Below are positions 555 to 59,252 of a DNA stretch of 64,000 nt, in pieces. The notes beneath the pieces are model-generated. The model saw nothing but the letters and a program-made list of their open reading frames with translations. It had not been told where the DNA came from and did no database searches. The stretch's first letter is position 1. Each line of letters begins with the position of its first letter. This stretch comes from Trebouxia sp. TZW2008 (Eukaryota; Chlorophyta; Trebouxiophyceae; Trebouxiales; Trebouxiaceae). The stretch lies in the NCBI GenBank assembly GCA_002118135.1, contig BDIU01000167.1, positions 62,536-126,535 on the forward strand. Reading direction: 5' to 3'. The position numbers were made by a program, and so were the translations under genes.

Positions 555-2135
555 TGCAGTTTGCTGTGTCGGACTTTTGACAGCGGATTGGCTGAAGTGT
601 GCCATGAAGAAGGTGTGGGCCTGGTGGCTTACAGCCCCCTGGCTATGGGCTTGCTCACGGTCAGAGCCAAATGTCTATTACAAACTGCATCTGTTGCATG
701 CCCTGCTGTCCTGCCTGTTTTGACATTTACATGGGCAAACCACCACAGGGCCCAGCGCATTGCAGCTGGGTTGGATTTGCTTGACTCATGCTGCTGTTCT
801 CAGCAGTATTTGCTTGACATCTCTTGGCAGTCTGTTGTCTATAGCCAATGCATGAATACAGCTATGCTAAGCGTAAGAGGCTGCTGACTGGTGCATGTGC
901 TGCGCGAGGCAAATTACCAAGCCTGATATGGAAGCACCAGCCACAGGCAGACGCTTGCGCCCATGTCAGAGACAATTGCTATCAGTAATGGACTGTCTTG
1001 TCACTCATGCTTCGAAGCACTCCTGCCTGGGCCAAATCAATGTGAAGGACTGCACTATTGCTTGTGCTTGGCAAGGCAACTGTCTTGCACCAGAATGCCC
1101 CCTTGCCCTCTCATATGAGTCAGATCAAGTGTTGACACGGACTGTACTGTTGCTCATGTGTTTCAGGGCAAGTACCTTGCCCCAGGGTGGCTGCAGCACC
1201 CCTTTTCAAGCAAGATCAATATGGATATGGGCTGTACCATTGCTCATGCTTTACAGGGGAAATATCTTGCCAAAGACGGTGGGCCAAAGGAAGCCAGGTT
1301 GAACAAGTACAAGGGCAGATATGCTGAGGCTGAGTCCAGATATGGCCTGAGGCCCAATGTGGCAGCAGCAACACGGGCCTATGCTGACTTGGCACAGCAA
1401 AGCGGCATGACTCCCGCAGCCCTTGCTCTAAGGTGAGGCAATACAAACCTATGCTGACTTGGCACAGCAAAGTGGCATGACATCCGAGGCCCTTGCTTTC
1501 AGGCGAGCCAGAGTGTATCTCCCACTACGGTCACTACTGTCATCACAATGCAAGGCTGCTTTAGCATCGGGAATCACAACGCAGTACTCTGGCTTGCATT
1601 TGTGGGCTGCTTCTACTCACAGAGACTCCCATTGTGACTCTAAATGGCGTGAATTTTCTGTTCTTTCCTACTTTGGTATGCATTGCTACATTGTCTTTGG
1701 CTAACAGCCTGTGTGAGCTGTGCATTTATTGGCCTTCTCATCTCATGCTCCATCCCTTTTGTGTCAAACAAAAGTTCAAGTCAGCAAGGGCTGCCTTCTG
1801 CTGTTCATCCTATGCGTCTCACACCTCCATTTCAGACCTTGGCATTCTGAAGACGCATGACACTTGATTTGCATTGCTTTGTGCTCAACCACACAAGGGA
1901 TGCATCAAAATGAGATGCAGATTTGCAGATATGTTTCTAGTAGCTGACATTAAATATGACTTTGCTGTGCAGGTTTGTGCTCTCACATCCTTTGATCGCT
2001 GCTGCTGTCATTGGGGCTATGGATGCAGAACAGCTGACAGAGCTTCTTGACATTGCTGAAGCGCCACCTCTATCAGAGGATGTCATGAATGCTGTTGATG
2101 CTGTCCATCAGCTATATCCAAATCCCTGTCCTTGA
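555..2135 (+). CDS. Aldo/keto reductase, C-terminal part (5' end missing)
   Basis: This is the C-terminal half of a NADPH-dependent aldo/keto reductase of the Tas-like/potassium-channel-beta-like type, a soluble TIM-barrel oxidoreductase. Three exons join in phase: 555 (or 560)-659, 1257-1432 and 1973-2135. The first carries the family block GLVAYSPLAMGLL, which must be followed by TGKY; the joined exons give T|GKYLAKDGG. The second ends in a helix rich in Ala/Leu (ADLAQQSGMTPAALALR), typical of the segment before the NADP-binding loop. The last reads FVLSHPLIAAAVIGAMD, the site that contacts the cofactor phosphate, and ends at a TGA. The N-terminal half with the catalytic tetrad is not visible. 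The substrate cannot be inferred. Two exon borders are duplicated inside the introns (see repeats). Confidence 0.82.
1030..1290 (+). repeat. Three ~90-bp tandem copies of an intron-exon acceptor in the AKR gene
   Basis: Three diverged copies begin near 1048, 1140 and 1230 (periods 92 and 90 bp). Each contains the polypyrimidine/acceptor stretch followed by the start of the GKYLA exon. Copy 3 (exon start 1257) continues into the full exon. Copy 2 also has a usable CAG acceptor and reads GKYLAPGW before diverging. Copy 1 has lost the AG and the reading frame. Seen directly in the sequence. Confidence 0.8.
1378..1505 (+). repeat. 70-bp tandem duplication of the end of AKR exon 2
   Basis: The segment coding AYADLAQQSGM at the exon end (1378-1437) is repeated at 1448-1507, about 85-90% identical. 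The first copy ends in a normal donor (AG|GTGAGG). In the second copy the donor GT has become GC (AGGCGAGC), so the copy is either silent or depends on a GC donor. Confidence 0.82.
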
Positions 2136-2699
2136 AAACAACTTGAGCTTGCAATTGCTCCCGATGAGGTGTCGATGGTTGTTTGCAAAGCCACAGCTAC
2201 TCTTCTTGACTCCGGAATTTGCTTATTTTGAAGGACAGATGATCGTCGTTGACTTACACGGTTTGTTGGGCAATCAATGTAAGAATTTTACGTGTATCAG
2301 GTTTTTTACATCAGAGCACACTGGCAAAGCATGTGGCCCTTTTTTGATGCAATGTGATACAATTCATGACATGCAGAGTGGCAAGCAATACGCCATCAGT
2401 CAGAGCATACCTGCCACTCCATGTGATCCTAGCTGCGCATTTTGAGTGATGATGCAGCATGACTGCCGAATAGCGCAAATGGGGTTCAGAAAAATGTTGT
2501 GAGGACCATACACAAAAGGTAGACCTTGGCAACTGTCAGCTCAGTAAGGCTGTGCAAGTTGTATTGCACTGTCTGTACGACTTCACTAGGACAACTGCAA
2601 AATGGCACCTAGGCCTGGACTGTCAAAAACAAACTGCATCTGTGTGTTTGACATACACACAAACATACAGCACACATCAAGGTCAGTACAGCACAAAGC
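2136..2699. other. Intergenic spacer, AKR 3' end to coiled-coil gene 3' end
   Basis: Convergent 3' ends flank this AT-moderate spacer. I see no coding signal or structured repeat in it. Confidence 0.5.
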
Positions 2700-5600
2700 T
2701 CATTCCCCAAGTGACTGCAGCTCAGCATACAGTTCCTGCAAGCGTTGCCGCCTCTTTATAGTCTGCTGCAGCAAATGTGGTCCATTGGCACTGGTGTCGT
2801 TCCTTCCTGTCGGGATTTTGATAGGGCTGGCAGCGCCTTTCTGCTTGAGACTGCCACCTGGCACCCACTTCGGCTTTGCAGCTTGCCCCTTGTCTGCAGC
2901 AGCAGTGAATGTTTGACCTGAAAGCAAAATCCTCAAAATGCGCTGAAGAGCAAATCATGGGCAAATGCCAAAGTCTTACAAGTGGTCGAAGTAAAATGAA
3001 TGTAGTGATAAAATGTCTGCAGAAGACATGCAGGGTGCAGGCCTTCTGCAGTGCTGATGCAGTCTGCCAAAATGGGATAGAGAACAGGCGAGACAAGAAA
3101 AGTCTACGCCTTTAGGCGTCAGGACAGGAGCCTCTATAAACAGAGGCTCCTGTCCTGACGCCTCTGTGGCCTCTCTGAGGCCTCTGGCCTCAGCTAGCCT
3201 CAGGCGTAGCTGTAGTATATATCTGTAAAGCAGTGCGTTACTTAGGTTTGTTTGGTATGCCTGGAATTCGAGCGTAACAACAGTTGCTGCAAGATCTTTG
3301 CTGCAAATGGTGGTGTGGTATGCACTGATGCTCGTCACCAGCAAACCCTGTAGCAAGCTGCAGATTGTGTACTAACCTTGCTCTTTTCGTGGTGACAACG
3401 TCGATGCTGTCTTGCGCATTGTTCGCTTCGGTGTTCCAGCTGCTGATGCAGGCTCTGGTGCACCTCTGGGTGATGGGTCTGCATCAGCACGTCTGGAAAA
3501 GGACAGGCTACCATCCTGCAGATGACCGCAAAGTATGACCAAAGAGACTAATAAAGAAGAGGGAAGGGAAGGGAAGGGAAGGGAAGGGAAGGGAAGGGAA
3601 GGGAAGGGAAGGGAAGGGAAGGCTGCTAGGCGTGTTTGGAAGGCCTGAGGAAAACCGTAGCATCCGTAGGAACACCATATGTACAATGACATGGTGTCAC
3701 AAAGCATCTATTACGTGTCAGACTTCAAGCCAGCCAGAGATCGTGGGTCGACTGGCAGCCTGAAACACTCAAAGAGTGCTACTTGGGCATGCTGGAAGTG
3801 TTGATTCTCATTACCACCCATCAAAATGCAGGACATGCTTTCACAGCGGCCATGATACACAAGCGTGCAGAGTGCTGCCACACCATTGTCACAGCATGCC
3901 ATGACACTTGCTGCTGCCGTACTAAAGGCTTGATGATGGTGAGCTGCATCATATCTTTGCAAGTGACAAAATTCCCAAAAAAAAGCCTTCTGATTGTGTA
4001 AAGAAAAGGTTTTGCTGTGTTGAGTACTTACCACAGGTGTACCATGGGTGACAGCCTCTGGCTCTGCCACCCATTCACACTGAACTTGCAGCAGTCAGCT
4101 TAGTGGTGAGTACCTTAGACTGCAGCTGCCTCTTAGGAGGGGGCTGCTGCTGGAAGGCAGCCTGTAGGGTGTGCAGGGAACGGCACACTTCCTGCAGGCT
4201 GCCCTGCATGCTCTGCATTTGCCCCTGCAACCCCTCACTCTGCTGCTGCAGGGCTTGTTCAGCCCTCTGTGTTACAGCCCTCAGGCTGCCCTGCCCTTTG
4301 TCTTGCCCTTGGCCCTGCCCCTGCTGAAGGCCATCAGCCCTTTGTGGGACAGCCCTCAGAATCCCCTGTCCCTGGTTGTGCTGCCCTTGGCCCTGTCCTT
4401 GACCCAGTCCCTGCTTCTGCTGTCTCTGCTGCTGCGGCTCTTTTGCTTGTGGAATGGAGTCAACTGTGTTGGGCTGGCGGGAAGAAGCAGCAGTGTGGGG
4501 TTGTCTAAAGCTTAGCTCAGCGGCAATGGTTGAGGCGGGCTGTTGGCTTTGGCGGCTGCTTTGTAGGCCTGACGCCAAAGTCTACATCCACAACATAGCA
4601 CTGTCAGCATGCTTGGAGTTTCAACCCAATGGCTGTTGAGATCAACAATCACAGAGTAGCTGTCCAGCTGAAGAGTCTCAAGCAGGCTTCGCAAAGTGAG
4701 TTGTTACAATGCAGTCCCTTCACTGCGCCTTGACGCAAATCGAGATTACGAAGCCCAGGAACAGATCATGCATTGCTTTGGGACAACTTTGCACAGCATG
4801 AAGCCAAAAGTCAGCAAAGAACAAATTTGCAAGTCAGAGCAGATGTTGCCCGTGCAAGATGTACTGTAATCAGATGTGGCTGCATGCAGCTTCAGCATAT
4901 TTAGCATACCTGAAGCTCAGTCCTAGCCTGTGTCAGGCAGTTCATGCCCTTCTTAATCTCCCCTTCAACTGTCTTCTGAATGCCCTCCAACATCTGCTGT
5001 GCCTGCAGACACACGTGGTATGCCTATGCACCTGAGTTCAAGGCAAAACTCCAGCAGACGAGCTTCCCAGGTCGCATTTTCACCAGCTGTGTAGCTGTCA
5101 AAGTCGACTGCCATGAAGGGCAAATTTGGCGCTGCAACCATACCAGGCAAGGAAAATTTCACAGCAGCAAGCAACATGCTGCACAGATGTAATGCCAGCG
5201 CATGGCTCAATGATGGGTGCTCAGTAAGGCGTCAGTGGGTGCAGACATCATAGAATGCATTGCAGGCGTGATGCAGGGTGCCTGCAGACTGAGTGGCCCA
5301 CCATTGCAGTGCATGCAGACATGATGGAGTGGTGTTGAAACAACACATAGCAAGCGGACTGCAGGGAGGGTGCTTACGGGTGCCTGATGAGGCCCAGCAG
5401 ACTGTGCAGCTGCCCATTTGGCATCATGCAGCAGGTCCTTGAAGCGGCTACGCTCTGCCTTGAGCCCCTGCAGCTGCTCACCCAGCACCCCCTGTACCTC
5501 CTGCAGTGCCTGCACCCACACACCATACCTCAGCTTTGCTAGCACCAGCAATGGCAGCCGCCGCCTTGATTTTGCAAGTCAAAGACATGAAGACTGAGAC

Positions 5601-8554
5601 TGCTCATCCAGCACCCCTTGCACCTCGTGCAATGCCTGCGCCAAAGCAAAACATTTTACCACTTTGGCACGATCTACAAAAAATGGCACAAGTCAAAAGA
5701 CACGAAGGCTGTGGCTGCTCACCCAGCACCCCCTGCACCTCCTGCAGCGCCTGCATACCCACGCCACACATGTACCATGATCCAGACTTGACAGGCTTTT
5801 CAGGCTGCGTTGCAAGCAATTGTTGTGCTGCTTCTGGCTACAGAGGCTCTTGCCATGAAGAGTAAGAGCGTACACCTTGTTCTGCCAAAGTTTGCCAGCA
5901 ATTGCAGGCAAATACAGCCTGCCATGAAGATAGTTTAGCCTAGCCCAGCTTGCTGAGAGCATTTTCATGTGCAACACAAGTGAATCCCAAAATGCAGTCC
6001 AGGGCTGGTTGCAGGCAGGTGATGAGCTGCTTCTATTCACGGAGGCTCCCTGTAAGAAGCCCAAAACCGCCGACTTTTCAATGTTTTTCTTTTGTTCTCT
6101 TTCCTTTATACTATTTTCTTCTTTCCCTTTGAAGGCAGTGGCAGGCAAATCACCTGGGAGCAGGAGTCGGCTCTTTGCAGATCAGCAGGCAGAGGCGCTC
6201 CTGAGAGCAGAAGGGTCACAGACTGCTCCATCTGGCAGAGTCTGTTGGCTAGGTCAGGCAGCTGCACAGATACGCCCTCAGGACCCACACCTGCAAAGTA
6301 ACAGTAATGATTTCAGTGACAGTCACTTTTGGCACTTTGCAGGTCAGTAGGCAGAGGCGCTTTTGACAGCAGAAGAGACACAGCCCGCTCCATCTGGTAG
6401 AGTTTGTTGGCTAGGTCAGGCAGCTGCACAGCCACCACCTCAGGGCCCACACCTGTACAGTCTCGGCAATACTGTCATTGACAGTGACAGGAACAGTAGA
6501 CTGTTTGCATGTCAGCAGGCAGGGGTGCTCCTGACAGCAGTAGAGAGACAGATTGCTCCATCTGACACAACCTATTGGCCAGGTCAGGAAGCTGCACAGC
6601 CACGCCCTCAGGACCCACACCTGAACAATAACAACTACACTGATAATGGTCGCAACGATGATGAACAACAGCAACAGCAACAGTAAATGTAACAAGAGGA
6701 CAAGCAGTCACGCTCACAGTGCCAGTAGCACTGACACTAGTTGCAGCAGCAACGGTCTCAATGACAACTTCAGTAACAGTAATCGTAGCAGCAACAGAAT
6801 AAGTAAGAGTGACGGTCATAGAGAGATTTATGGTGATGTCGACATTTCACAGAAGGTACCATTTGCCGTAATTTTGATGGTTGCGTTGTCCAGCATGAAT
6901 GCTAGGCGTGTGACATACTTCTGTACAGTGCAGAGACATTGTTTGAGAAGTGCCAGGAGCTGACTTTGGGACCCACTGCAAGCTTCATATGTGCAGCAAA
7001 ACCTGATACTGTTTGAGCTGCATGGCAGTTGAGGCCCTAGTGCCAGGGCATGACTGCTCAAGTGCTGCAGCAGTGACAGCTGCTGACTGTGGCTGCTCAA
7101 ACATTGCTGCAACTGTTGAGACGGCACTGCGGCTACGGATGCAGATTGGAACTGCTACCAGCATTGTCCTTGATTTAGACACTGTATGCAAGCCTTCATA
7201 TGCGAGAGCTTTGCTTTCAAGTCATGAGTGGTACAGGCTGGCGATCAATCTTTGCAACAATCTAAAGCAGCCAAGCTGTGCATGCAGCCAAATCGAGAGA
7301 AGCACTTGCCTAGCTGCTTCTCCAGGAACTTGGCCAAGGCTCTGTCCATCTTGCTGAGCATCCTTTGCTCCAGGGCCTCCAGCTGGGCCTGCATGCCACT
7401 TCAAAGCTAAACAGGCTGGAGGCAGCTATCCAAAATGTGCCACACAACCCACACCAAAACACCTGGTCCTGACTGTCTGAGCATGCACACATCGGCCTTG
7501 TCAGTTGCGCAGCAAGTGTGCTGATATTTCAAGTCAAGTCTGACCCAAGGCGTCAGGCCAGAAGGTCACTATTGCTTGCCAGGTTGTGGCTTCCATGCAA
7601 CAGTCTCAGCTATGATGAGCATTGAGCAGCATCTTTGCATATGCCCAAGGCATGAAGAGCAGCAGGCAGCGGCATCCGCAGCAGCAGGGGACCATTGTGC
7701 TTGTTTGATGCATCACATGAGTGGTGAAGAGTAGAATGGCAATTGCAGCGCATTGGCTTGCCTGCAAGTGGCTTTCTTGCGCTGCCTCTGACTTCTGACG
7801 CTGCTGCTCTGAAGTGGAGACAGCAGTCTCCAGCTGCTGCACTCGCCGTGTGAGCTCTGCCACAGCCTGCTTTTGGAGCCCCTCATTGTCCTCAGCATAT
7901 GATTGGCTGCATTTGAGCAGGCGGCCTGTGTTGAGTACCTGCACACATCGCTCTGCTGTGACCACCAGTGCCGATTTTCAGCTCTGTCACGCGTTTTGCA
8001 GATTGACCAGTTTCCATGTAAGGGCAAGAATATATGTCTCCTATTCTGCTCAAATGGCCAAGCTGGCTCAGGCAGCTGCATCTTCTTCTCGTTTTTGGGT
8101 GTGAGAGCTTTTCATTACACATGTATCAGCAAAAGACACATGCAATGACAGAATCAGAAGGGCAGTATACAGTTCATCTGAAGACAAGCAGCAGGCAAAC
8201 TAAACAACCTGCAAAACAGCAGGCAGCTGCATTTGCTGCACGAACAGCTTTAGGGCGCAATATTGAACTAGCGATGTTACCTTCTCTTCTAGCAGCCGCG
8301 CTGCACTTGTGACAGTCTCAAGCCGCTGATCAAATGACTGTACTGTCAGGCATGCATTTGTTACGCGCTCAAGCTGACTTTCAAGGTAACCAATGTAGGT
8401 TGATCTGTCTGTCAGCAGCTTGTCTGGGTGCACATTTTCAGAGTCCTGCAGAGAGTGCTGCTGTTCAGCTGCATGTCGAGCCTTCGACGTGCAGAACCAA
8501 AGTCACAGTCCACCTACCCGCAGCTGGGCCTGCAGCTTATCGTAGTTCTGCCGC
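2700..8554 (-). CDS. Large coiled-coil protein, multi-exon, function unknown
   Basis: Minus-strand exons that join in phase or have clear splice sites: 8518-8554, 8281-8468, 7762-7906, 7310-7388, 6154-6290, 5378-5509, 4910-5002, 4115-~4570, 4032-4084, 3377-3492 and 2700-2907 (stop at 2700). Most exons encode heptad-like helices: YLESQLERVTNACLTVQS, AELTRRVQQLETAVSTSE, LEALEQRMLSKMDRALAK and QEVQGVLGEQLQGLKAER. A Gln/Gly-rich segment (GQGQGQ repeats) lies near 4300-4420. The tail is basic and Ser/Pro-rich and ends in a helix with RRQRLQELYAELQ. The 5' end lies upstream of 8554 and was not found. Introns after 7762 and 7310 start with GC. It looks like a structural or centrosomal/cytoskeletal coiled-coil protein, but I do not recognise the family. 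Exon order between 6.3 and 7.3 kb is incomplete. Confidence 0.6.
3104..3209. mobile_element. Short palindromic element with 22-bp perfect hairpin
   Basis: Positions 3114-3135 and 3142-3163 are a perfect 22-bp inverted repeat around a 6-nt loop. Ends CTACGCCT (3104-3111) and AGGCGTAG (3202-3209) form an outer 8-bp inverted repeat. The GC-rich element lies in the intron between the last two exons of the coiled-coil gene. It looks like a foldback/MITE-type insertion. No target-site duplication is evident. Confidence 0.6.
3562..3621. repeat. (AGGGA)n microsatellite
   Basis: About twelve uninterrupted AGGGA/GGGAA pentamers in an intron of the coiled-coil gene. A simple repeat with no coding role. 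Confidence 0.95.
5575..5757 (-). repeat. Two extra tandem copies of the coiled-coil exon ALQEVQGVLGEQ
   Basis: The exon at 5378-5509 begins ALQEVQGVLGEQLQG. Diverged copies with the same start lie at about 5643-5575 (ALHEVQGVLDEQ) and 5757-5689 (ALQEVQGVLGEQ), 114 bp apart. Both copies share a different 3' end (S/PQSSC-like) from the parent exon, so they arose from each other. The parent has a clear donor (GTAAGC); the copies do not. Confidence 0.75.
6340..6620 (-). repeat. Tandem copies of exon VGPEG...LLLSGAPLPAD
   Basis: The exon starting at 6290 is repeated at 6452 and 6620 (periods 162 and 168 bp). All three copies have an AG acceptor before GTGTGGG and stay open in the same frame: QLPDLANRLCQMEQS, QLPDLANKLYQMERA and QLPDLANRLCQMEQS. 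Only the 6290 copy has an obvious GT donor (6154, CAG|GTGATT). The protein conservation of copy 3 is high enough that it may be a real cassette exon. Confidence 0.8.
6640..6825. repeat. AACAGTAACAG-type low-complexity tract
   Basis: Degenerate trinucleotide-rich DNA (CAR/AAC/AGT units) lies in the intron upstream of the third exon copy. It is open in several frames because of its composition. I do not treat it as coding. Confidence 0.7.
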
Positions 8555-9019: not shown

Positions 9020-12000
9020 CTATCTATGCTCATTCTGAACTGGCACATCTGTTTGTGTTCGCGGCTGTTCATGAGGCTGAGTCTGCTGATTCATGCGCAA
9101 CCTGCGCCTTCTCTGCAAGACAAGCCATAAACCAGCTCCACAACCCACTAGCAGAAACAGCTCTGCTTGATCAGTGACAATGCTGGCCAGAGAGCCTATA
9201 CGTGCGACCACGTCCAAGATCACGTCTATTCCTCTATGCATTCCATGGAAAAAATGTTGCCACAGACTTATATCCCCACCAAACTCTTGTACTGTCCCTT
9301 GCTCTGCTTCATGCAGCTCGAACATTCGCTGCTTCAGGAAAATAAACCTGTCGGGCACATATGGTTTGACGGACAACCACCAGCTATGCAACCACAGGCC
9401 ACACAAGGCCAGGAAGATAGGCACAAAGGTATCTGGCTGGGCATCCATGGCTTTGTCATAGTATCTTTTGGCAAGATGTAGATCCTGTGGCAATCCAGCG
9501 CCGTACTCATGCATGAAACCCAAGTTGTAGCTGGCTTGCGCAATGCGGTGTCTGGAGGCTTCAGCATATCTCTGTGCAGCAAGAGACCAATCTCGGGGCA
9601 CACCCCGGCCGTAGTAATAGCTGTCACCAATCTGTAAAAGCGCCTCATGGTTTCCCTGTTGGGCTGCTCTTTCATACAGCTTGATGGCAAGCTGAGCGGC
9701 GGCCTCGCCTTGGTACCCGTAGTTGTGGGTCAGCATCCAAGCTGCATTGCTTTGGCCAATTTCACTGCCCATCTCTGCAGATTGCAGGTAGTGCAGCAAT
9801 GCTGCTTCATACTCCCCATCCATGAATGCTTCAAAGCCCTGTAACAACAAGATTGAACACGTGATGTCACAGCTTGCTTTGCCTGCAATGGTCTAGCACA
9901 TCAGGGTGGTCCTCGTACAGAAATGACAGCCCTGCATCAACATCATCATTTGCATGATGTTCTACTTTGCGCGCCTGCATTGTGATGACACAGCTGGTGA
10001 CTCCATTGGTTGGCAAAAGCAACCTGATGAGCTGACATTGCAAGCAGAAGCTGCTGAAGCACACAGCTATGGTAACAGACTAGGCTCTGTCCTAGTGAGC
10101 GTGTGCCTCAGCTCAAGCACATGCCCAAGTGAGATTGTGCGTAGCCGCCAATCAGTTCATCAGATAAGATCCAACACTTCTGGTGTGTCTATTATACGGC
10201 TTTCTCAGAACAGCACTCAAGCTCTGCTGTGCAAGCACCTCCACACGTTACAGCAACAGGCTGGTTTTGGCACATTGCTGAGGCCTTGCTCAAAATGGCA
10301 TTGACAATAGACACTTCCATACCAGATTGCAGCTAGTGAACTTCAACGTTCATAACAGCAGGCTCACTGCAACAGGCATGACTTTGAGCCTTCACAAGCA
10401 GCTCTTGAGCCAGTTTCAGCTCCATTGGACTGATGAAGTTAAATAACCCCTGCTGTATAGAGATGCCTCGCAGCTTTTTGCTGGGCTGTTTGATGTTGTT
10501 ACATTTGCATCTGCATCAAGCAGCCCAGAAGAAGCTGCAGGGCATCAGTGCACAGCAGACTTTCCCTGCTTTCACACACAACGCACGTTAGATGCAGCAA
10601 TGGGTTGTCAGGAATCACGCCACAAAACCCTCTTGGTATATGAACACCCAATACAAGGAACTTGCTAAAATGACACTATTGTGTGGACAAGGAGATTGGG
10701 AACCAACCACTGCATTCTGCCAACAGTGGTTACTTCTGACTGACATCAACTCAATTCAAGGACAGAGGTTGTTGGGTACAAGCCCTATTATGACATTTTA
10801 ATGAACACTGTGCTGGCTGAGATGCCCTCCCCAGCTGCCTTCTCAACAATCTTCCTCTAAAGGGCTAGGGCAGGTGGGCATTCAGCCAGGCACACATGAC
10901 AATCTTTCCACTAGGATCAGCCAAGCAGAAACAGGTTGTCAGCAATCACTGTACCTGCTGAACCAGCCCTCCCCAGCTGCCCTTCTCGGCAATCTTCTTC
11001 AGCACAGCTAGGGCAGGTGGGCAACCGGCGTTGGCACTTGCTGTGCCCAGACTTGCCCCATTGCTGAGGTGCATCATGGCCAGGTTGTACATGGCCAGCA
11101 GGTGACCCACTTGACCGGCAACAGTGAAGCAGTCTATGGCTTGGCGCTGGCTGGGCTTGACTCCCCAGCCATTCAGATACATGACTCCCATGTGGAACCA
11201 CGCTTCAGCAGAGCCCTGCAGCAATAGAATGAAGCTGCAGTAAGCTTTGATGGGAGTCATGGCTACATTGAAGCAATTGATGGCTCGCCGCTGGCTTGGC
11301 TTGACTCTCTAGCCATTCAGGTAAATGACTCCCATGTGGAACAGTGCCTCCGCAGAGCCCTGCAAGTAACACAAACAAGCTGCAATTGCTGAGTTGCATC
11401 ATGGCCAGGTTGTACATGGCCAGCAGGTGACCCGCTTGACCAGCTACTGTGAAGCAGTCTATGGCTTGACGCTGGCTGGGCTTGACTCCCCAGCCATTCA
11501 GATACATGACTCCCATGTGAAACCACGCTTCAGCAGAGCCCTGCAAAAACAGAATGAAGCTGCAGTAAGCTTTGATTGTATTGGCCGGCTACATTGAAGC
11601 AATCGATGGCTCGCCGCTGGCTTGGCCTGACTCTCTAGCCATTCAGGTACATGACTCCCATGTGAAACAGTGCCTCCGCAGAGCCCTGCAAGTAACACAA
11701 ACAAGCTGCAATTGCTGAGGTGCATCATGGCCAGGCTGTACATGGCCAGCAGGCGACCCACTTGACCAGCTACAGTGAAGCAGCCAATGGCTTGGCGCTG
11801 GCTGGGCTTGACACACATGATTCCCAGTACATGATTCACGTGTGAAACCACGCTTCAGCAGAGCCCTGCATTTGCAGTACCGAATCACAGCAAAGCCACA
11901 GAGCATGTGAACTTCAGAAGCAGGATCGTGCACCACTACCTAAATCTTCAGCAGTTTGTTGCTTCTGAGTGTGCTTTGCCAGCAGTGTCCAATCAATAAG

Positions 12001-15000
12001 CTGTTCTGCAAGATCTGGCTGATCTTAATTCCTAATGATCTGTCAGGGTGCATACTGAAGCAGGCAAGCAATGCACCAAAACAATGAGCTTGCAGCAGTT
12101 GACACCTTGGAGCCGTGGCAGCAATTGTCTTCAGACTTCAAGTATGATAGCTGCAGATGCAGTGTTGAGCTACATGTAGCTTCTGGCTGTCTTGATGCTC
12201 AGATCGCCTTGGCAAATGCAGCACTGTAAGCTCAGTGGAGATTGGAAACAGTCAACAAGAGGTGACGGTATCAGCACTAAGAGCTTATTGCACCAAGACA
12301 TGATGCAGGGTCAATGTGCTAGTGGACATGTGCCTTGTGAAGCTCAAGAAAATGACCCCATTGCTGAGAAATGTGGGGTTACAGACAACAGCAGGGCAAT
12401 ACATTAGTCTTGTGACACTCACAGCTTCTGAGGCGCGCTGAAAGAGCTTGAAAGCAGTCCTGTAGTCCTGCTCAGTGCCAATGCCATTCATGTGCATGTA
12501 GCCTAGGCCAAACTGCCCGTTGGGATTGCCAGCATCAGCTGCTGCCTGGAAATGCTGCCTGGCGGTCTCATTGCTCTGAGGCACGCCCTCTCCATTGGCA
12601 TACATGTGGCCCAGATGCGCCACAGCATCAGCATCACCACCATCAGCCGCTTGCCTATACAGGCAATAAGTCTGATGTTTCACGCTCTAGTCCAAGACAC
12701 AGCTGCTGCCTGGAAGTGCTGCCTGGCGGTCTCATTGCTCGAAGGCACGCCCTACATGTGGCCCAGATGCGCCACAGCATCAGCATCACCACCAGCAGCT
12801 GCTTGCCTGCACCCGCAACATGTGTCATACGTCACTAAAGTGCATGTAGCCTAGCCCAAACTGCCGGCTGGGATTGCCAGCATCAGCTGCTGCCTGGAAG
12901 TGCTGCCTGGCGGTCTCATTGCTATAAGGCATGCCCTCTCTGTTGGCATACATGTGGCCCAGATGCGCCACAGCATCTGCACTACCACCATCAGCTGCTT
13001 GCCTGCAGGCAAAACCAGAAGAGCCTACTGAAACCCGAAAATCCTTTGTTGGCTGTGCCTCTACTCCTGCTGGTGGAGTGCAGTTTCATGACCACTCACT
13101 GATACAGCATAAGCCTGTTGCTTCCGCAATGTCTTTGTCCTGCAGCAGCACAACACTGGCACATCATTGTGCAGTGCTGTCACAGCAATGACATGGTACT
13201 GATCAGTTGATTTTGCACACTGCTGCAAAGCTTGCTGCTGTGTCGCCCAACGTAATGCGAAGCTTGCTCAATGTTCTTGTGAGGGCCCCGGCTGGAGATC
13301 TGCCCCTCAGTTTGCTGAGCGTCCGTGCTGCCCTTGTCTCATGATCATGGAATGATGCTCTGAATTATGCATCTTTCAGACTGTTATGTAGATTGCTGGT
13401 CAGTCACCTGAAGTAGCGCAAAGCTTGCTCGGTGTTCTTGTGAGGGCCATGGCTGGAGATTTGCCCCACAGCCCTCTGAGCCTCCACGCTGCCCATGTCA
13501 GCAAACCACTGGTAATGCAACATCTCCTGATCCTTACTGGGCCGCCGCAGGTTGGCACTCTTGTAGTTCAGCCTCACACGCTCCACCTGCATGGCATCCA
13601 CGCCTGTCACGGCCCGTTTTGCAAGCTGACAAGCAATTTCTGCTTTCCTAATTGCGAGCCCCATGCAGCCAGGTCCAAAGTGAAAGCAACCTTTGCAAGG
13701 TTTAGGAGGTTTCATCGAAGGCAGTTCAATGCCAAGGCTTGCCACGTCTTGCCCAATTCATGTCGTTGAAGTCAAGACTGCAGTTATTGCTGATCAGCAT
13801 CACAGCCAACCACAAGATCAACAATTTGGCAAAATCTGCTGTGCAGGAAGCACCTGTGGGAGTTGATTAGGGTAGCGGGAAGCCTGAATCACTTGCTCTG
13901 CGACTGGGTTATAGTACAGCAGACCAGCCTGACAGCTCTGCGGCACGTCCACGCCGTACATGTGTCTGTAGCCCAGGGCCATCTGAGCAAAGGAGTCATT
14001 GCCAGCCGCCCCAAAGAAGTAGTTCAGGAGGCCCTCAGGCATGTTTGGTGCTTCCAAGTGGTACAGAGTGGTTTCGGAGCCGGTGCTGGGGTTTAGGCCC
14101 AAATTGTAGCGTACACCCATGTCTGCTTGTGCGTCTGGGTCGCCTAGCTCTGCTGCCCTTTTGAAGAGGTCATGCGCAATGGCTGTGTCTACAGTGACAC
14201 CCTCTCCTGTGCAAGGGGCAGGCTGTGAGCGCTAAAGCTTGATTAGGTGGAAAAAGAATGATAGAGTGGTTTTGGAGCCGGTGCTGGCCTGCAGGCCAAA
14301 GCTGTAGCATACACTCATGTCTCCTTGTGCGTCTGGGTCGCCTAGCTCTGCTGCTGTTGTGCAGAGATCATGCGCAATGGATGTGTCCACAGCAACACCC
14401 TCTCCTGTGCGAGGGGCAGGCTGTGAGGGCTACAGGAGCTTATTTGCTACCATATACACAGCAGAACATGAAACTTTTTGTGTGTAGTGTTGTGTCAAGC
14501 TGTCGACGTTTGCAAAGCGTCTGTCATGAGACCTGCAGCTCAGTGGTATCCTGACAGAAACACACATGCCAAAGCTCCCGCTAGACTGAACTTGGTTTTG
14601 AGACACACATGCAAGCTGAGTCATACTGCAAGGTGGTGTTGCTTGCAAGTGTTGCATACACAAGCACTTTCCAATAGCTCCCAAGCACATAGTTCAAAGC
14701 CATGCAGGCAGCGTGCAAGGGAGCATACCAGCTTCATACACCCGCGCAAGCTCTTTGAGAGCTGACACGTTTGGCTCATCCAAGAACTGCAAGCCTGAGG
14801 CATATGGACTGCCAGATGGGTCTGAGCTGCTGTTGACCGACTGTGCCGCTGTGACATTGAGCTCAGCAGGCAGCTTGACACTGGCAGCAGCAATCAGCAA
14901 GGCTGCAGCATGCCTGAGGTCTTTGGATGAGGGATTCTGCTTGGTCCTGAGCACAGTCAGACTTCATCACCAGTGCAGATGATCACAGTACAGATGATCT

Positions 15001-47900: not shown

Positions 47901-50338
47901 TATGACACAAAACATCACCAGGATACAGTGAAAACACAACTAGTCATTATGATGCAGGAAACATGTTGGCATCTGGTGTTTGCTGGGCATGACGACAGCG
48001 CTTCCACTCTGAGCATGATGCTGCATTACCTCAGCCAGTGTACGTATTGAGCATCATGATGGAGTAACACTACACATACTGATGGTACGGGAAATCTGTC
48101 GGCACCCAGTGCTTCTTGGACATGACACCAGCGCCTCCACGGTGAGCAGTGAGCATGATGCATTGTCAAAATATGTCGTTTTGATGCAGGAAACGTGCTG
48201 GCACCTAGCATTTGCTGGGCATGACTTCAGCGCTTCCACCCTAAGCATGATGCTGCACTACCTCAAGAAAAAGCCCTGGGTGCTGGAGAAGCTGCATGCT
48301 GAACAAAGACAGGTGAATTGCTTGTGACTCCATTGTCAGTTCTGTTTGGCCAGGCAGCAACTGCTGTCTGTTCGGCAGCTGCACCACATGTGCCGGATGT
48401 GCTTGCTCCTGTTACGGGCAGACGCAATGTGACTTTTGCGACTTGCTCTTGTGCAAAGACATCAAGATTGAGGAGCTGACCATCCACTTGATACAGGCTG
48501 GCCTATGTGGCACAATTTGAGTGAGTATGCGCAGGTCTTAGGCCTTTATATCATGGAGTTGACAGCCCAGGATCGTTACAAGCTATGCTGATGTGACACT
48601 CAACATGAGCCCCTGTCGTTCTGTACGCATCCCAGCACAGACAACTAATAGGCATTTATAGCAAGTCCTTGAGCTTGTCAAATGTAGGTGCAAGACAAAC
48701 ATGGCAGGGATGCGACAATTGACTACCTGGCAGACATGAGCTCCGCTGAGACAGGTGCAAGGCAAAAATGGCAGGGCTTTGACAGTGGACCATCTGGCCA
48801 ACATGAGCTTGTCAAATGTAGGTGCAAGGCAAACATGGCAGGGACGTCACAGTTGAGTACCTGGCAGACATGAGCTACGCTGAGCTGGTGATCAAGGAAA
48901 CGCTGCGGCTGGCAGCCATCATCAGCACGCTGCCTAAAAGAGCGCTGATCACCTTTGAAATGGGTGGCTACACCATCCCAAAGGTCGGTACATGCTTGCA
49001 AGCAAGCTCACATTGTTACTGCATTTGGAGCATGTGCACAAGCTCTGCATACACAGCCTGACTGAAAGTGCTGAGCATCACTGTGATGGCAGACTGTACC
49101 GCATACCTCCCAAATCATTCTCACCTATAGCACACCTGGTTTTCTGTGATACATCAAAACTAGTTTGAGAGCATTTTTGTGTTGTGCAGGGCATGCAAGT
49201 GCAAGTGGAGCTATGGAGGGTATTGCAGAATGATGCCAGGTGGGCTGCCGCCCAGGGACCCGACCACCCCGCCACCCTGACAGGCAAGCACGCATACTTT
49301 TGTTCACAGTCAGCGTCACAGTCATAGCTTGCTTGCTGCATAGTGCATTTGCCAGAGAACCAGAGACCCAATCACCCTGCAGCATCAAATCCAAACAACG
49401 TGATCTGTTGCACACTGATGCCCAAAATAGGCTTAGTGAGATAAAACTTGAGCCACACAACACTGGCAGATACATTAGAACACGTAGGATCAATAGCTTG
49501 AGGTGGCGAGCAGGTGGCTAGGGGAGCACAGTAAGGAAGCTGGCAGCTCCAACCCCTTCAGCGCTGGGCCCCGCATGTGCCCCGGTCAAGGCTTTGCCTG
49601 GAATGAGATGAAGGCAAGTAACAGAAATCAACCCAGCAACCTCTGTGCATTGCTTGAACCCAACAAACAATTGCAGCCATAAATCTTTGTGCGCAGTATG
49701 TGGCACAGACAAGGCTTTGCTTGGAATCAAATCAAGTTCCAAAACATCAATCTGGCGTTGCATGGAGTGCATCAAAGGTTGCAGCCATCATTCTCCGTGC
49801 ATTGCACGGCCCCTGGCCAACGCTTTGCATGTATAGAAATTAAATTAAGAAGCCACCAGAGAATGTGCATGACCATGTTGAGCTGTTTTGCATGTAGATT
49901 TCTATCAGTTGCAGCTTGCTGTTCAGGAGCTGGTTCATCACCAGTCACATGCAGAAAATCTGCATCACCTTCCTTACAATGTTTGCTCACACACCATGCC
50001 GTCATGTATGCACAGCACTGTCTGAAATTGTACTGCAGCGCTGCAGACCCTTCACATCTTGAGTGCTCTGTAGCTGCTGTTACAGCCTTTCAAAACAGGA
50101 TGAGCGTTCTGATGATTCCCGACCTTGTGATGACGATCTGTCTTGTTCCATGTGACCCAGCTGCATCAGCATAAGTTGCACCGTCCAGAACAATGAAGGC
50201 CTTTCTGCTGTGCAGATCATGTTGGCTGTGTTGACCAGAGACTATGACTGGGACTTGGATTTGAATGAGCCAATCAAGACATTTCCAATGCCGGTTCCTT
50301 TGCATGGCGCTCCAATGACCTTCCGTCGCCCGGACTAA
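44993..50338 (+). CDS. Cytochrome P450, CYP85-clan-like
   Basis: An ER-type heme monooxygenase. Exons: a possible N-terminal anchor (ATG 44993, PIGVVIVAVSVLFLKK), an exon ending 45415 with PPLPPLAKGIPFIGDT, then 45526-45614, 45831-46038, 46435-46564, 47075-47159, 47501-47594, 48190-48312, 48822-48983, 49190-49283, ~49500-49613 and 50216-50338. Signatures: ELVLGFPKDF, LVALPIDLPGTDF (CYP85-clan style), I-helix AGHDFSAST, ExxR in IKETLRL, heme loop PFSAGPRMCPGQGFAW with the ligand Cys, and a tail ending FRRPD. The canonical I-helix Thr is replaced by Phe in the exon that joins in phase. Introns after 49283 and 49613 start with GC. N-terminus (alternative ATG 45164), the segment after 46038 and the start of the heme exon are unresolved. 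Substrate unknown; the clan includes sterol/isoprenoid hydroxylases. Confidence 0.83.
47958..48312 (+). repeat. Three copies of the P450 I-helix exon
   Basis: Copies begin at 47958, 48091 and 48190. They read ETCWHLVFAGHDDSAST, EICRHPVLLGHDTSAST and ETCWHLAFAGHDFSAST. Copies 1 and 3 have AG acceptors; copy 1 has a GTACGT donor and copy 2 a GTGAGC donor, while copy 3 runs to the full exon end (48312). Only copy 2 has the standard oxygen-activating Thr after GHD, but it lacks an AG acceptor. Confidence 0.88.
48688..48890 (+). repeat. 67-bp tandem triplication of the P450 ExxR-exon start
   Basis: Acceptor plus exon start VQxKHGRD recurs with exon starts at 48688, 48755 and 48822, exactly 67 bp apart. 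All three have a TAG or CAG acceptor. Only the third continues into the ETLR exon. 67 is not a multiple of three, so use of an upstream acceptor would shift the frame by one or two. Confidence 0.9.
49560..49860 (+). repeat. Three copies of the P450 heme-loop exon end
   Basis: The block RMCPGQGFAWNEMK (about 49571-49613) recurs diverged at about 49695-49736 (RMWHRQGFAWNQIK) and 49805-49848 (GQRFACIEIKL). The heme-ligand Cys is present only in the first; the other two lack the AG|GC donor of the functional exon. Confidence 0.82.
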
Positions 50339-51332: not shown

Positions 51333-51730
51333 TTAAGTTGGACTCTCAGGAGTCACACAGCTGTTGACACGTGCACAGCTAGAACTTAAGTTTTCTGACT
51401 CTGGGCTCCTTCTACTTGTAGCGGCTTTCAACAACCTCAGACTTCTCCTTCGAGCTTTCTGGTACACCGTCTCTAGCTGTCCCTCCAATCTGCTAGCTAC
51501 GTTATGAACAGTGAACAAGTAGTCACTGAGCCGATTGGGAAAGGCTGCCACTGCTGCTTTGCAACAGGCAAAGGCTTTTGCCTTTTCTTCAAGCTTTTTG
51601 GTACACAGTCTCAGACTGTCCTTCCATTCTGCTAGCTACCCTGGCCACAGTGAAGAGGTAACCGCTGAGCTTGTTGAGAAAGATCGCCACTGCTGCTTCA
51701 GTAGCCTTTTTCCTTTCTATTCCTGTATTT
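51333..51730 (-). repeat. Two extra copies of the MMAB C-terminal exon end
   Basis: Downstream of the functional stop (51731) are two copies of the last 33 codons. Copy 2 (51691-51589) reads IFLNKLSGYLFTVARVASR and ends in its own stop at the same position. Copy 3 (about 51549-51450) reads FPNRLSDYLFTVHNVASR and runs on to a stop at 51333. Offsets are about 142 and 139 bp. Confidence 0.88.
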
Positions 51731-52849
51731 TCAAGCTTTTTTGTAGACAGTCTCCGGCTGTCCATCTAGTCTGCTGGCTACTCTGGCAACGGTGAACAGG
51801 TAATCGCTGAGCCTGTTGAGAAAGATGGCCACTGATGCTTCACAAGCGCCTGTGGACACCAGGTGGGTGACACTGCGCTCTGCTCTCCGACAGACTGCCC
51901 GTGCCAAATGCAGAAACGATGCTGCGTGGCCTCCTGTGTCACAACAGTTCGTTTGGTAAGCTTGTTGGACAACAAAAGCTGCAGCTAAGATCTAAACATG
52001 CAGAAACTTCTGATGTCATCAGTGTCCATGTCAGACGGTGAAAGCTGCAGCTGATACCTGCAATTGCACTGAGCAGGCTCGCAACTTCACGAACTTTTGC
52101 ACACATACTGGGCAATGTACTTTGTAAATGAGTTGTAGAAGCTATCACCTGCCTGTACCCACCTCAAGAGGCAGTAGCATGTCGCACTGCAAAACTTTGC
52201 GCAAACACTGATACCCACACAAATGTGGAAGGTGCAAGCTGTGCATGCATGTCGCTTTGCGTGCGGCTGAAATTGCAAGTGACTGAGCCAGGAGCAGTGT
52301 CAGCAAGTTGCAGATTGCAAGGCCAAGCTTGCAGTGAGTTGAGACTGAGACAAGGCTTGCAGAATTCGGATGGCCAGGCTTGCACTGAATGAATGATCAG
52401 GCTTGCAATTGCTACCTGAGGGCAAAATGAAGTTGGTGAGGGGAGGCAGCTCTTCATCCATTGCATCAATCCACCGCTCTAAGTCAGCGGTGGCGCCTTC
52501 ATCAAACGACGTCCGCTGTAACTTGCCGTTGGATGAGTTCTCCAGAGGAGTAGCGACAGCCGAACCCACGTCCAGAAGTCTTGACTGTATAGTCTTCAAC
52601 TGCACAGCTGACATTGCAGCTGATGCGGCGAGTCAGAAGCGCGGTGGTGTGTAGGGGCCGACAGTCAAAAGTCACCTGCTCGGACCTTTCAGTTTCTAGC
52701 GTTCGCATGTACTCCCGTGCAACGCCGCAAAGAGAGTTGAGCTCGTCTACATCGCCGAGGGCCTGGAAGGCGCCGTCTGTTTTGTGTCTACGCTCTCCGT
52801 TGTACAGGCTCGAGGTGCCCTTGTCGCCCGTCTTTGTGTACACTTTCAT
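51731..52849 (-). CDS. MMAB: Cob(I)alamin adenosyltransferase (PduO-type)
   Basis: Transfers the adenosyl group of ATP to cob(I)alamin to make the methylmalonyl-CoA mutase cofactor; usually mitochondrial in eukaryotes. Three exons, 52849-52676, 52599-52416 and 51933-51731, sum to 561 nt (186 residues) in frame. Hallmarks: N-terminal YTKTGDKGTSSL (ATP loop), ALGDVDELNSLCGVA, the middle helix IQSRLLDVGSAVATP, FILPSGG, and the C-terminal ARAVCRRAER and FLNRLSDYLFTVARVASR blocks that form the cobalamin/ATP site at trimer interfaces. The first residue (ATG 52849) lies directly before the catalytic domain, so a mitochondrial presequence, if any, would need an upstream exon. It is divergent from, and 352 bp from, the methionine synthase reductase start. 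Confidence 0.94.
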
Positions 52850-53201: not shown

Positions 53202-56200
53202 ATGACTTCATCAGATCAGGGGCAGCGCTCCTGGTTGCCAATTTTGTTAGCTAGCGGCTGCACCTTGTTCGCGCTGCCTGTTGTGCTACCTGTACTGCTT
53301 GCGATCTCTCCTGTATTGGTTGTGGCTGGTCTCGCATGGACCGCATGGAGGGTGCTCGAAGCTCGCACATCAGAAAGAGCAGTCGCGCCCGCTGCACCTC
53401 ATTTCTCGCCACAGCAAGTGAGAGAGCAGGTATGCTGGACAGTGCGGCAAGGCAGCGTGCTTGGGTCTCACTTGCGCATTTGGTGTTCGCGCTAACTCTG
53501 TAAGACGCTCAGACGTTTTGGTCCTACAGGCTGAAAAGGTCCGGGCTGCGGAGAGTGCAAGCACCTCGGGCAGCAGTCAGCCTAGTGCACACAGTAAGGA
53601 GAATGCAAGCAGGAGCACGGCCACTGACAAGGCAGAGGGTGTGTCCGTCAAGGCAGCTGCCTCAAACAGCAGTCATGCCACAGCAAATGGCGGCAGCAAA
53701 GCAGAGGATGCAGCCCGCAAGCCTGCTGGCCAGTCAGAGCGGCCTGCTAAGGCATCCTCCTCAGACAGCAAGTCGCCTTTGGCAAACAGCACCAACAAGG
53801 TGCAAGCTGCAGCCAAGCAGGCTGCAGGGAAGACACAGCAGCCTGCAGTGCCAGCCACTGGCAGCGCTGCGCTTCTGGCTCGCATTAGGTGTGTGCTGTG
53901 CTTCAGCTCATGAACAGCCTATCTCTGTTCAAACACGCAGCACCAACCTCAGGCAGTGAAAGGCATCATGCAAACAAGCTCATTTGCAGTTTGCTTTCAA
54001 GAAAGCAGCACCAAGCCCAACAAAGGCGCCATGCAGCAGAACTCATGTCAAGGCGGTTTGTCATGGCGGTGCCAGCATACCTGCCTGTCCTATCTCTGCA
54101 TCAGATCAATCCAAAGCATGCACAAGGGCAGCTCCCTCCGTCAATGGGGATGCACCTCAGCTTCATGCCAAAGGTGTATATGGCAATGCCAGAGCACTTC
54201 AGTAACTGACAACTCTTCTTACTCTTACACAGAAGTTGGCCTGATGAAACTGACTGTCTTGGCCGTGCAGGAATCAGCACGGCCAAGCAAGAACAAAGAC
54301 AACACTTTTTCTGCAGAATTCTACTTGTCATGATAGCGAGCGACATCTTATCTGCCTGTGTTGGCTTTGCAGGAATCAGCGCAAAGCAAGCACAAAGGCA
54401 GCTCCCTCAGCCAATGGGGCTGCACCCACCTCTCAGCAGGCCAAAGAGGTCATTGTGGCGTATGCATCCCAGACTGGCACAGCGCAGGAGATTGCTCGCA
54501 ACATCCAGGCAGAAAGCTTCAAGCATGGCATACAGTCTAAGGTATGCTGCTGAAGATGTTAAGTTCAGCTTCTTTTGATAACACTTGCACACAGCACAAG
54601 CTTCTACCCTGATGCAGATTCAGAAACACAATCAGTCGAATGGTTGCTTCTGAAGGCGTAGATGTCAAGATCAGCTTGTTTTGCCATCATCAGCACAGGC
54701 TCTAGGAGCATGTTTTGATGCAGGAGCAGAAACCAAATCAGTCTTGATTGCCTGGCTTTGATGTGCTTACGCAACACAGTGTCATGTATGCTGCTGCTGC
54801 TCTGATGAGCTGTTTGGCTTGAGGCGTCCACTGCACCAGCTCCTGAGCAGGCGTGAGATTTGCTGCAAGCAAATGTAGCAGTGCAGGTCTTATAGGCGTG
54901 AGTTGAGCTTTGTGAAGCACCAGTGGGTCTTGCCTATAGCAGCAAAGCGGAAGTTGCATGCAGGTGTTGTCTGTCAGTGTCTGTCAGTGAAAACGGGTAT
55001 GGACAGTGTGCTGAAGCTCAGACATCTCTTGCTCCAGACCATATACCTTTGATTGAAACTGCAAATAAGCAGGAATGTTGGGTGCAGGTATTGTCTTTCA
55101 ATGAGTTGGGCATGGACAGTGTGCTGAAGCCCAAGAAGCAGGTGGTGGTCATGGTGGTCTCTAGCACGGGCGAGGGCGATCCTCCTGACAACTCTGTCAG
55201 GTTCTATGGCCACAGCAAGTAAGCTGCGACCCTGCATCTTTGACAGATATTGCCATGCGTGAATCTTGCAGCTGCAGGGGTGACAGGCACTGCTCACTCT
55301 CCAATGCTTCTGCCTTTTGCCAGCTTGGATGACTTGCCACAGCAATACTTGACATCTCTGCTCCCACATTCATTGCCTGTGCATGTTGGTCAGCATCAAA
55401 GTCCCAGGTATGTTTGTGCACAGGCAGTCAGCTGTTGCAAGCAGTCTTGGCCTTTTTTGCCTTGATCTTTGGAGTGGCTGGAATGTCAGATGCAGGCATG
55501 TCCTTGAGAGTTCTGCCCATGCCAAGACATGTTGTCCTGATGCAAAACAGGTTGCCTCAAAGCAAGCTTGTCTGCAAATTTGCCCTGCACAAGCATCATC
55601 TGATGGTGCAGGCGGCGCAGTCTAGCACAGGATGCGCTACAGCATGTGGAGTTCAGCTGCTTGGGGCTGGGAGACTCAAACTACACACGCTACATGGGAG
55701 TGCCTAGGGCATTCAAGGTAAAACCACTACCTTACCTTTTCTCTTCTGCTCATACCATGCATTCAGTACATGTGCCAAAGTCATTGATCTGCAGACATGA
55801 GTTTGCTGTCCAAAAGGCATAGCACTCATCTGCAATTCAAAAAGCCTCTGCAAACAGAGGCGTTTTGCAAAGCTGGTGTCCCGGGAGTTCTGGACCCCAC
55901 ATCAGAAATCACCAAAGCAATATCGGACTGTGCAATTGCAAGTCAGACATTTCTTTCCCATGCTTTAGTTGTGCCCAGGATTCTGTACTGCAAATTTTTG
56001 TTCAGGAAATCCCTGATTCATCACCAAGACCTTGTGGATCATTTTCCAGACGTTTGATGACTTGCACACAGGGACGATTTGCTGAGCTGGGTGCCAGGGT
56101 TTTCTACCCGCACATGGAGGCTGATGAGGTAGACGGCCTGGAGGAGTTTGTGGACAAGTGGGTAGCGGGCCTCTGGGGGCCCCTCAAGGCAGCTGCTCTT

Positions 56201-59200: not shown

Positions 59201-59252
59201 TCTTGCTGACATGACCAAGCAGCAGCGCTATGTGCGTGACATTTGGTCCTGA
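53202..59252 (+). CDS. MTRR: Methionine synthase reductase with N-terminal membrane anchor
   Basis: A diflavin (FMN/FAD) enzyme that passes NADPH electrons to cob(II)alamin on methionine synthase. Exons: 53202-53429, 53530-53888, 54373-54541, 55088-55219, 55631-55717, 56072-56212, 56561-56980, 57859-58109 and 58322-59252 (about 905 residues). FMN part: [62 protein letters not shown] part: [75 protein letters not shown] and the end RDIWS. The FPSCQPPL block and DIWS end match MTRR rather than P450 reductase. Novel: exon 1 encodes two hydrophobic stretches ([32 protein letters not shown]) followed by a 120-residue Ala/Ser/Lys linker; phase links it to the FMN exon. A further exon near 55317-55410 is possible. 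Confidence 0.92.
53990..54310 (+). repeat. Multiple decayed copies of MTRR FMN-exon start
   Basis: Upstream of the real exon (54373) lie copies of its acceptor and first codons at about 54271 (CAG|GAATCAGCACGG, 102 bp away), 54105 and 53990. Words such as AAAGCAAGCACAAAGGCAGCTCC recur in diverged form. The copies do not extend to the flavin-binding motif intact. Confidence 0.72.
54963..55040 (+). repeat. 125-bp-displaced copy of MTRR exon 4 start
   Basis: Copy of the acceptor and first 60 bp of exon 55088-55219 (GTATTGTCTTTCAATGAG vs GTGTTGTCTGTCAGTGTC), including GGTATGGACAGTGTGCTGAAG. The CAG acceptor is preserved; the frame is lost by an indel. Confidence 0.8.
57690..57815 (+). repeat. 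Degenerate copy of the TA-flanked MITE family in MTRR intron
   Basis: Contains the family interior: ACTGATCACTGCATTCAGACTGC followed by TTTGAGTAAGGAC and AAGGACAATTT. Terminal repeats are not recognisable. Confidence 0.6.

Follow-up and report, generated by a model that had tools for sequence, protein, structure and literature searches.

Do the genes of the green alga Trebouxia sp. TZW2008 preferentially duplicate the borders of their own exons? The question is raised by a 64-kb stretch of contig BDIU01000167.1 (positions 62,536 to 126,535 of the forward strand, hereafter called the window), in which the first-pass annotation had seen short same-strand copies of a splice site and its adjoining exon sequence. 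We compared the window and further parts of the genome with themselves. The best account of the copies would be a repair-type local copying, tolerated where splicing or reading frame allow it and visible longest beside coding sequence; we give this reading a probability of roughly 0.48.

The source genome comprises 527 contigs and 68.5 Mb with a G+C content of about 50%. In total we sampled 314 kb, namely the window and 250 kb from three further contigs, here C273 (100 kb), C100 (100 kb) and C55 (50 kb). Genes were modelled ab initio with a simple gene finder that was self-trained on the sample, and the splice sites are thus predicted and not RNA-derived. The gene finder returned 64 genes with 505 exons (median exon 138, median intron 309) and a splice consensus of CAG/GTRAG for donors and TGCAG/G for acceptors. 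A stricter set held the 255 exons that scored at least 15. Of the 17 models in the window eight were scanned against Pfam, and all eight matched a family: AKR, Sel1, two AGPase parts, P450, cobalamin adenosyltransferase, the flavodoxin/FAD/NAD domains of MTRR, and RTA1.

In the window we found 28 direct repeat pairs (score at least 60, at most 2 kb apart), compared to no inverted pair and no pair in any of three local dinucleotide shuffles. Over the 314 kb, where a score of at least 50 was used for pairs and clusters, 226 direct local pairs stood against 6 inverted ones, and the other contigs behaved like the window. Chance and base composition as the source of the repeats are ruled out by the shuffles and the inverted-repeat control. 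The pairs fell into 110 clusters, 20 of them in the window, which together span 42 kb or about 13% of the sample. Cluster density was 0.31-0.34 per kb in the window, C273 and C100, and C55 held 23 clusters in 50 kb. A cluster was present in 10 of the 17 predicted window models and 3 of the 20 window clusters were wholly coding, so that the earlier wording of "almost every gene" was an overstatement.

The copy-to-copy distance is unimodal, with 78 of the 110 clusters at 100-220 bp and a mode at 160-180 bp (22/110). This peak lies in the range of the nucleosome repeat, a mere resemblance. Clusters of mixed exon and intron sequence had a median distance of 167 bp (n=80), and mostly intronic ones of 101 bp (n=11). 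On all four contigs the best pairs are at least 70% identical and yet diverged, as had been claimed: an identity of at least 95% was reached by only 1 of the 110, when a constant-rate simulation expects 17-19%. Such scarcity of young copies points to an old wave, to young repeats being lost or to their collapse in the assembly. Repeat-induced mutation was rejected, as the transition share is 0.55-0.63 and the spectrum is not one-sided. A dispersed element was likewise ruled out for the items tested, one array and three spacers, which match only themselves genome-wide. In the window, C273 and C100, dispersed repeats make up 1.0-4.2% of the sequence and cover more than 30% of only 4 of 87 clusters.

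Next to their density, the position of the repeats relative to exons is not random. With the annotation shifted circularly to obtain a null, overlap with a splice site was found for 80 of all 110 clusters (null 65.1 ± 4.8; 81 under a slightly different marking of the sites). Wholly intronic clusters (8 versus 15.3) and wholly intergenic ones (4 versus 14.2-14.4) were fewer than under the null, and 13 clusters were wholly coding compared to 8.3. Much of the excess with all exons comes from the window alone, where a predicted splice site lay within the span of 17 of the 20 clusters (null 10.3). Outside the window, with all 505 predicted exons, splice overlap was 64/90 versus 54.9 (P 0.029); per region it was 21/34 versus 22.0 in C273, hence no excess, 27/33 versus 20.5 in C100 (P 0.022) and 15/23 versus 12.7 in C55. 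With the stricter exons the outside overlap was 57/90 versus 35.3 ± 4.4, and clusters without any coding base numbered 20/90 versus 44.7. Wholly intergenic clusters (4/90 versus 10.9) and pairs without a coding base (7/59 versus 18.0) were also depleted outside the window. The exon-edge link therefore holds beyond the window in which it was noticed, and is stronger for better-supported exons. The first-pass annotation had named equal frequency in intergenic DNA, or splice overlap no greater than chance, as what would speak against the link; the repeats are depleted in intergenic DNA and enriched at splice sites.

The geometry of the blocks was studied in 42 two-copy pairs in which one copy is mainly coding and the other non-coding. 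When the non-coding copy lay upstream (22 pairs), the block started within -50 to +20 of the acceptor in 21 pairs, compared to a null share of 0.40. Outside the window this anchoring was found in 16/16 pairs, and in 20/20 with the stricter exons. When the non-coding copy lay downstream (20 pairs), the block ended within -20 to +50 of the donor in 13 pairs (null share again 0.40), and in 9/16 outside the window, a weaker effect than at acceptors. Blocks straddling an acceptor had their partner upstream in 18 cases and downstream in none; those straddling a donor had it downstream in 16 and upstream in none. The remaining 8 of the 42 pairs lay within an exon (7) or covered one (1). This geometry fits a bypass by splicing, because the pair of sites that preserves both original exon ends stays in use. 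Among clusters that are more than 90% coding the period was divisible by 3 in 14 of 15, which indicates selection on the inserted length.

The copies in the window, with their strand where assigned, are as follows.

1378..1510, plus strand: AKR gene (Pfam Aldo_ket_red), exon end and donor copied downstream with a period of 70 bp and 86% identity; the copied donor is GC.
4259-4401: coiled-coil gene, coding-only repeat.
5473..5769, minus strand: coiled-coil gene, overlapping direct pairs spaced 114, 126 and 241 bp, with a cluster at threshold at 5575-5754.
6165..6633, minus strand: coiled-coil gene, repeat array (about 2.8 units, period 162 bp) that contains a predicted acceptor; cluster 6169-6627.
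10824-14435, minus strand: HRD3/Sel1 gene (Pfam Sel1), clusters at or above threshold within this range, which includes the next four entries.
10824..11870, minus strand: HRD3/Sel1 gene, direct pairs and arrays of mixed spacing (142, 144, 181 and 325 bp) in exon and intron.
12492..13012, minus strand: HRD3/Sel1 gene, copies spaced 164 and 348 bp; the sole genome-wide match of 12480-13020 is itself.
13229..13499, minus strand: HRD3/Sel1 gene, copied donor edge, period 161 bp, 77% identity.
14065..14435, minus strand: HRD3/Sel1 gene, upstream copy of an acceptor edge, period 198 bp, block 173 bp, 87% identity, spacer 25 bp.
17020..17331, plus strand: gene at 16.5-17.9 kb, copied acceptor edge, period 194 bp, 79% identity.
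19418..19766, minus strand: AGPase, acceptor edge (34 bp of intron and 114 bp of exon) in the upstream intron, period 201 bp, 81% identity, spacer 53 bp.
26968-27150: RTA1-like gene, copy below threshold (score 40).
31445..31739, minus strand: models at 28.9-33.1 kb, copied donor edge, period 211 bp, 74% identity.
31782..32138, minus strand: models at 28.9-33.1 kb, direct pair spaced 296 bp, 87% identity.
33018..33253, minus strand: edge of a predicted gene, direct pair spaced 143 bp, 73% identity.
47943..48265, plus strand: start of the P450 I-helix exon, pair of strong copies spaced 232 bp that encloses a weaker one (score 37).
48670..48900, plus strand: P450, copied acceptor edge, spacing 67 and 134 bp, 88% identity.
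51448..51842, minus strand: 3′ end of the MMAB gene (Pfam Cob_adeno_trans), nearly three units, period 139 bp, 75% identity.
54058..54426, plus strand: MTRR gene, acceptor edge copied upstream over a distance of 267 bp, 76% identity; the copied AG is lost.

Same-strand copies had been listed for a series of genes, and at threshold we recovered them in AKR, coiled-coil, HRD3, AGPase, P450, MMAB and MTRR; copies at threshold also lie in the gene at 16.5-17.9 kb and the models at 28.9-33.1 kb. In the RTA1-like gene the copy was found only below threshold. The spliced AGPase product aligns with six homologues and carries no extra peptide at the junction of the duplicated acceptor. The gene finder had split this gene (18647-23604) into two models, both with AGPase-type domains. 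The MTRR model matched FAD_binding_1, Flavodoxin_1 and NAD_binding_1.

The copies had been described as tandem and often in threes. Both descriptions apply to the 35 of the 110 best pairs that overlap themselves; these hold more than two units and are true, head-to-tail tandem repeats. The other 75 are two-copy, non-overlapping pairs with a median block of 91 bp, spacer of 53 bp and distance of 168 bp. Their blocks range from 28 to 193 bp and their distances from 70 to 565 bp, in a search bounded at 1 kb. A ratio of length to period of 0.9-1.1, as expected of head-to-tail copies, was found in 7/110 and a ratio below 0.9 in 68/110, so that most two-copy pairs are not arranged head to tail.

A head-to-tail duplication leaves either no spacer or one that resembles the outer flank. 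We therefore compared the flanks beyond the blocks in matched and mismatched pairs, using the 64 of the 75 two-copy pairs with a spacer of at least 20 bp. On this scale a divergence of 20% scores 1.34 and one of 50% scores 0.61. The acceptor-type flanks scored 0.567 per nt compared to 0.533 in mismatched pairs (z 1.4, n=20) and the donor-type flanks 0.510 compared to 0.509 (n=14); the 30 other two-copy pairs showed no flank similarity as a group. Single pairs above the 95th percentile on the intron side numbered 2/20 for the acceptor type and 2/14 for the donor type. Judged as groups, the flanks beyond the block edges thus show no common origin. When pairs with spacers between 15 and 260 bp were tested one by one, 7/64 had residual homology at z>3. 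No genomic source was found for the three spacers tested, out of 58 with a length of 30-260 bp, as each was single copy genome-wide. Within the 314 kb other matches to the spacers were not in excess (14/58 versus 47/174 for control intron pieces). The same form of copy, spacer and copy was also seen in intron-only, intergenic and wholly coding pairs.

From this pattern we infer a general mutational process that would copy about 30-190 bp, keeping the orientation, to a site mostly 70-350 bp away, much like a repair-mediated duplication by template copying. Some of these events may start as head-to-tail arrays or turn into them. A copy across an exon edge would survive since splicing joins the original exon ends and removes the intron together with the copy, and copies within coding sequence would survive in frame only. 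Pairs with one coding partner would in addition stay recognisable for longer, which would make exon edges look even more preferred. Within hits, coding-intron columns were more alike than intron-intron columns (0.857 versus 0.808, n=41), as expected if one side was held. Survivorship and visibility would together cause this preference, with the copies themselves presumably inert. The earlier proposal had been either a mechanism aimed at exon-intron borders or selection that keeps only such duplications. The second half, selection for tolerated duplications, fits the geometry; targeting of the borders seems less likely.

Several observations weigh against this reading. The tight anchoring at acceptors (21/22) has no reason under random copying, and the seating of block edges at splice sites is left unexplained by local copying with survival. 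A steady process should also have left more young copies than are seen. A forward simulation, in which random exact tandem duplications passed a reading-frame filter, decayed neutrally and were detected in the same way, predicted that 47-59 of the 110 clusters would hold a splice site and that 23-32 would be wholly intronic, compared to the observed 80 and 8. Survivorship as modelled therefore falls short of the observed preference; the simulated spans are shorter than the real arrays, which makes the annotation-shift test the fairer figure. Inertness of the copies is also not plainly borne out. Non-triplet indels made up 34/39 in coding-intron comparisons and 108/121 in introns, but also 26/33 in coding-coding pairs, so that the test separates poorly, being blurred by labels or alignments. 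In-frame stops numbered 12 in 1681 codons, compared to 17.4 expected with the mismatches kept in place (P 0.067) or 25.2 with random ones (P 0.001); both values should overstate the real expectation, because some differences arose on the coding side. AG was retained at 50 of 56 copied acceptors compared to 77% of control AGs (P 0.034), a slight excess. The somewhat low number of stops and the retained AG hint at some constraint.

Among the alternatives, the one that survives best is ordinary tandem duplication, head to tail and at any genomic position, with intron parts that have decayed past recognition, so that the blocks only seem to end at splice sites. We consider it rather unlikely. If intron DNA diverges two to three times as fast as the copied exon DNA, simulated overhangs become short (a share of 0.08-0.32 reaches more than 50 nt) and the ratio of length to period drops below 0.9 in 0.53-0.87 of detected cases. 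Of four paralogous blocks, two show a third-position divergence of 0.31-0.34 and are 83-97% coding, their introns no longer aligning. The residual homology in 7 of the 64 spacers and the 14 of 15 mainly coding clusters with a period divisible by 3, as if a whole period had been inserted there, point the same way. No acceptor-type block extended over more than 50 nt of intron, though with the real block lengths this lack is suggestive only (0 versus 2.6 expected, P 0.064); firmer is the lack of acceptor-type blocks that start more than 20 nt inside the exon (0 versus 4.7, P 0.005). At equal rates, however, the simulation expects 64% of blocks to reach more than 50 nt into the intron, and this was observed in 0/22 acceptor-type and 3/20 donor-type pairs. 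Moreover, exon-derived and intron-derived parts of the non-coding copies diverge alike (0.808 versus 0.785, P 0.24, 29 hits; P 0.43 for 20 loci) in a test that is biased to alignable pairs. The flanks score as unrelated introns, and look unrelated by eye also beside several blocks of 85-90% identity.

A different possibility is that exon ends are preferred templates, such that the first or last 40-150 bp of an exon, with the splice site and at most about 50 bp of intron, are written into the neighbouring intron on the same strand. We regard this as unlikely. A copying mechanism directed to splice sites or to the ends of exons, for instance via transcription, RNA or exon chromatin, seems to us less likely again. 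The anchoring at acceptors and, less tightly, at donors, together with the shortage of intron-only and intergenic pairs, makes a targeted process possible. The identical form of pairs that touch no exon edge speaks against it, and so does the ascertainment toward coding partners, which was incompletely removed. In addition, the splice sites are predictions of a gene finder trained on the sample itself, and no mechanism is in hand. If exon ends did serve as templates, introns here would consist in part of copied borders of the adjoining exons, and a bias of this kind would offer a direct route for intron growth, for decoy splice sites and for the birth of exons and introns, with over a hundred fossils within the 314 kb alone. 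If survivorship alone explains the clusters, the genome would measure which internal duplications splicing absorbs.

That the copies are functional, as alternative or mutually exclusive exons or as decoy splice sites under selection, we hold to be improbable. In its favour, 53 of 63 aligned copies lacked in-frame stops, with a count below both of the simple neutral ones given above, and AG was well retained. Furthermore, the differences at the three codon positions were similar in coding-intron (0.130, 0.110, 0.209) and coding-coding pairs (0.139, 0.127, 0.212), a pattern that can arise with one constrained and one drifting partner and is no proof. For comparison, an AG preceded by C was retained in 417/504 (83%) of coding-intron columns, and GT at copied donors in 28/42 compared to 63% in the control. 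Copied acceptors scored 5.4 compared to 7.6 for the real ones (18 pairs). The copied donors, on the other hand, are degraded, with a score of 1.1 compared to 5.8 (14 pairs), and the non-triplet indels also argue weakly against function. No copied acceptor could be read in an open frame into the real exon (0/21), which is partly so by construction because open cases would have been labelled coding. A donor score of at least 4 was found in 7 of 21 acceptor-type copies, a value that random intron windows reach in 25%, and only 2 of the 21 combined it with an open frame. The decoy acceptors, mutually exclusive exons and new exons that had been envisaged thus found no support in tests that are themselves weak (indels, read-through). 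Judged on sequence, the copies may be read as fossils with some hints of constraint.

An artefact of the assembly or the gene finder is very improbable: collapsed young repeats would explain why hardly any near-identical copies are present, and the annotation is ab initio, but the repeats were detected without annotation, are same-strand, diverged and at least 70% identical on four contigs, every scanned model has its Pfam family, and the link strengthens with stricter exons.

Among known systems the copies most closely resemble repair-mediated proximal duplications, whose insertion-site hallmarks (microhomology, a small deletion or filler) would need an empty site for comparison. Like those, they are short copies of nearby DNA and neither retrotransposed nor a dispersed element. 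In vertebrates such duplications have a median of 147 bp and a mean of 162 bp with a donor within 5 kb; a transposon-based search found 824 in the human genome, few donors hold exon sequence, and the authors expect that copied exons carrying splice sites would insert into neighbouring introns (PMC2671141). The likeness thus lies in the short local copies, a few with partial exon/intron donors. In contrast to them, the copies described here are far denser (about one third of a cluster per kb), nearly all direct, mostly 70-350 bp away and splice-anchored.

Vaughn & Bennetzen reportedly described in 2014 patch-mediated repair in rice, with small tandem duplications at staggered breaks. Fill-in by CST/Pol alpha also yields small tandem duplications, for which an origin in break repair was proposed (PMC8355091). 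Duplications at staggered breaks share with ours the direct orientation, the short units and the proposed break repair, but their copies are adjacent, whereas most two-copy pairs here have a spacer. A case from potato likewise involves the duplication, inside a gene, of an intron-exon structure that includes the branch site and the 3′ splice site; there the copy gave rise to a new intron and exon, whereas here it seemingly leaves together with the old intron. In tandem exon duplication with mutually exclusive splicing (PMC9013439), copies resembling exons also stand next to one another within a gene, but here they are mostly partial exons, and few have what mutually exclusive exons possess, namely an open frame and two splice sites of their own. 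Introner elements show similar sequences across many introns; here the copies are local, and the tested array and three spacers have a single match. In the literature covered on Trebouxia-like algae, on duplication, intron gain and repair, on exon duplication and on close direct repeats, to which most subscription journals do not belong, no such pattern is reported.

A few further repeats were noted in the sample. On C273 two neighbouring paralogous genes (116155-118107 and 120864-123959; our loci L010 and L011) match in their exons at 72-86% as separate blocks. A dispersed repeat of about 180 bp occurs in both orientations in the window (40547-40721 and 43462-43645), at C273:167764-168293 (L015) and at C100 around 146649-146794 (L023), with 80-84% identity between contigs. 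A window segment of 92 bp (27488-27579) is 91% identical to an inverted stretch on C273. At 42330-42481 of the window a coding tandem repeat (12/60 bp) gives rise to a histidine- and aspartate-rich stretch of a cysteine-rich protein, and at 3560-3622 lies a perfect AGGGA pentanucleotide array of 12.6 units.

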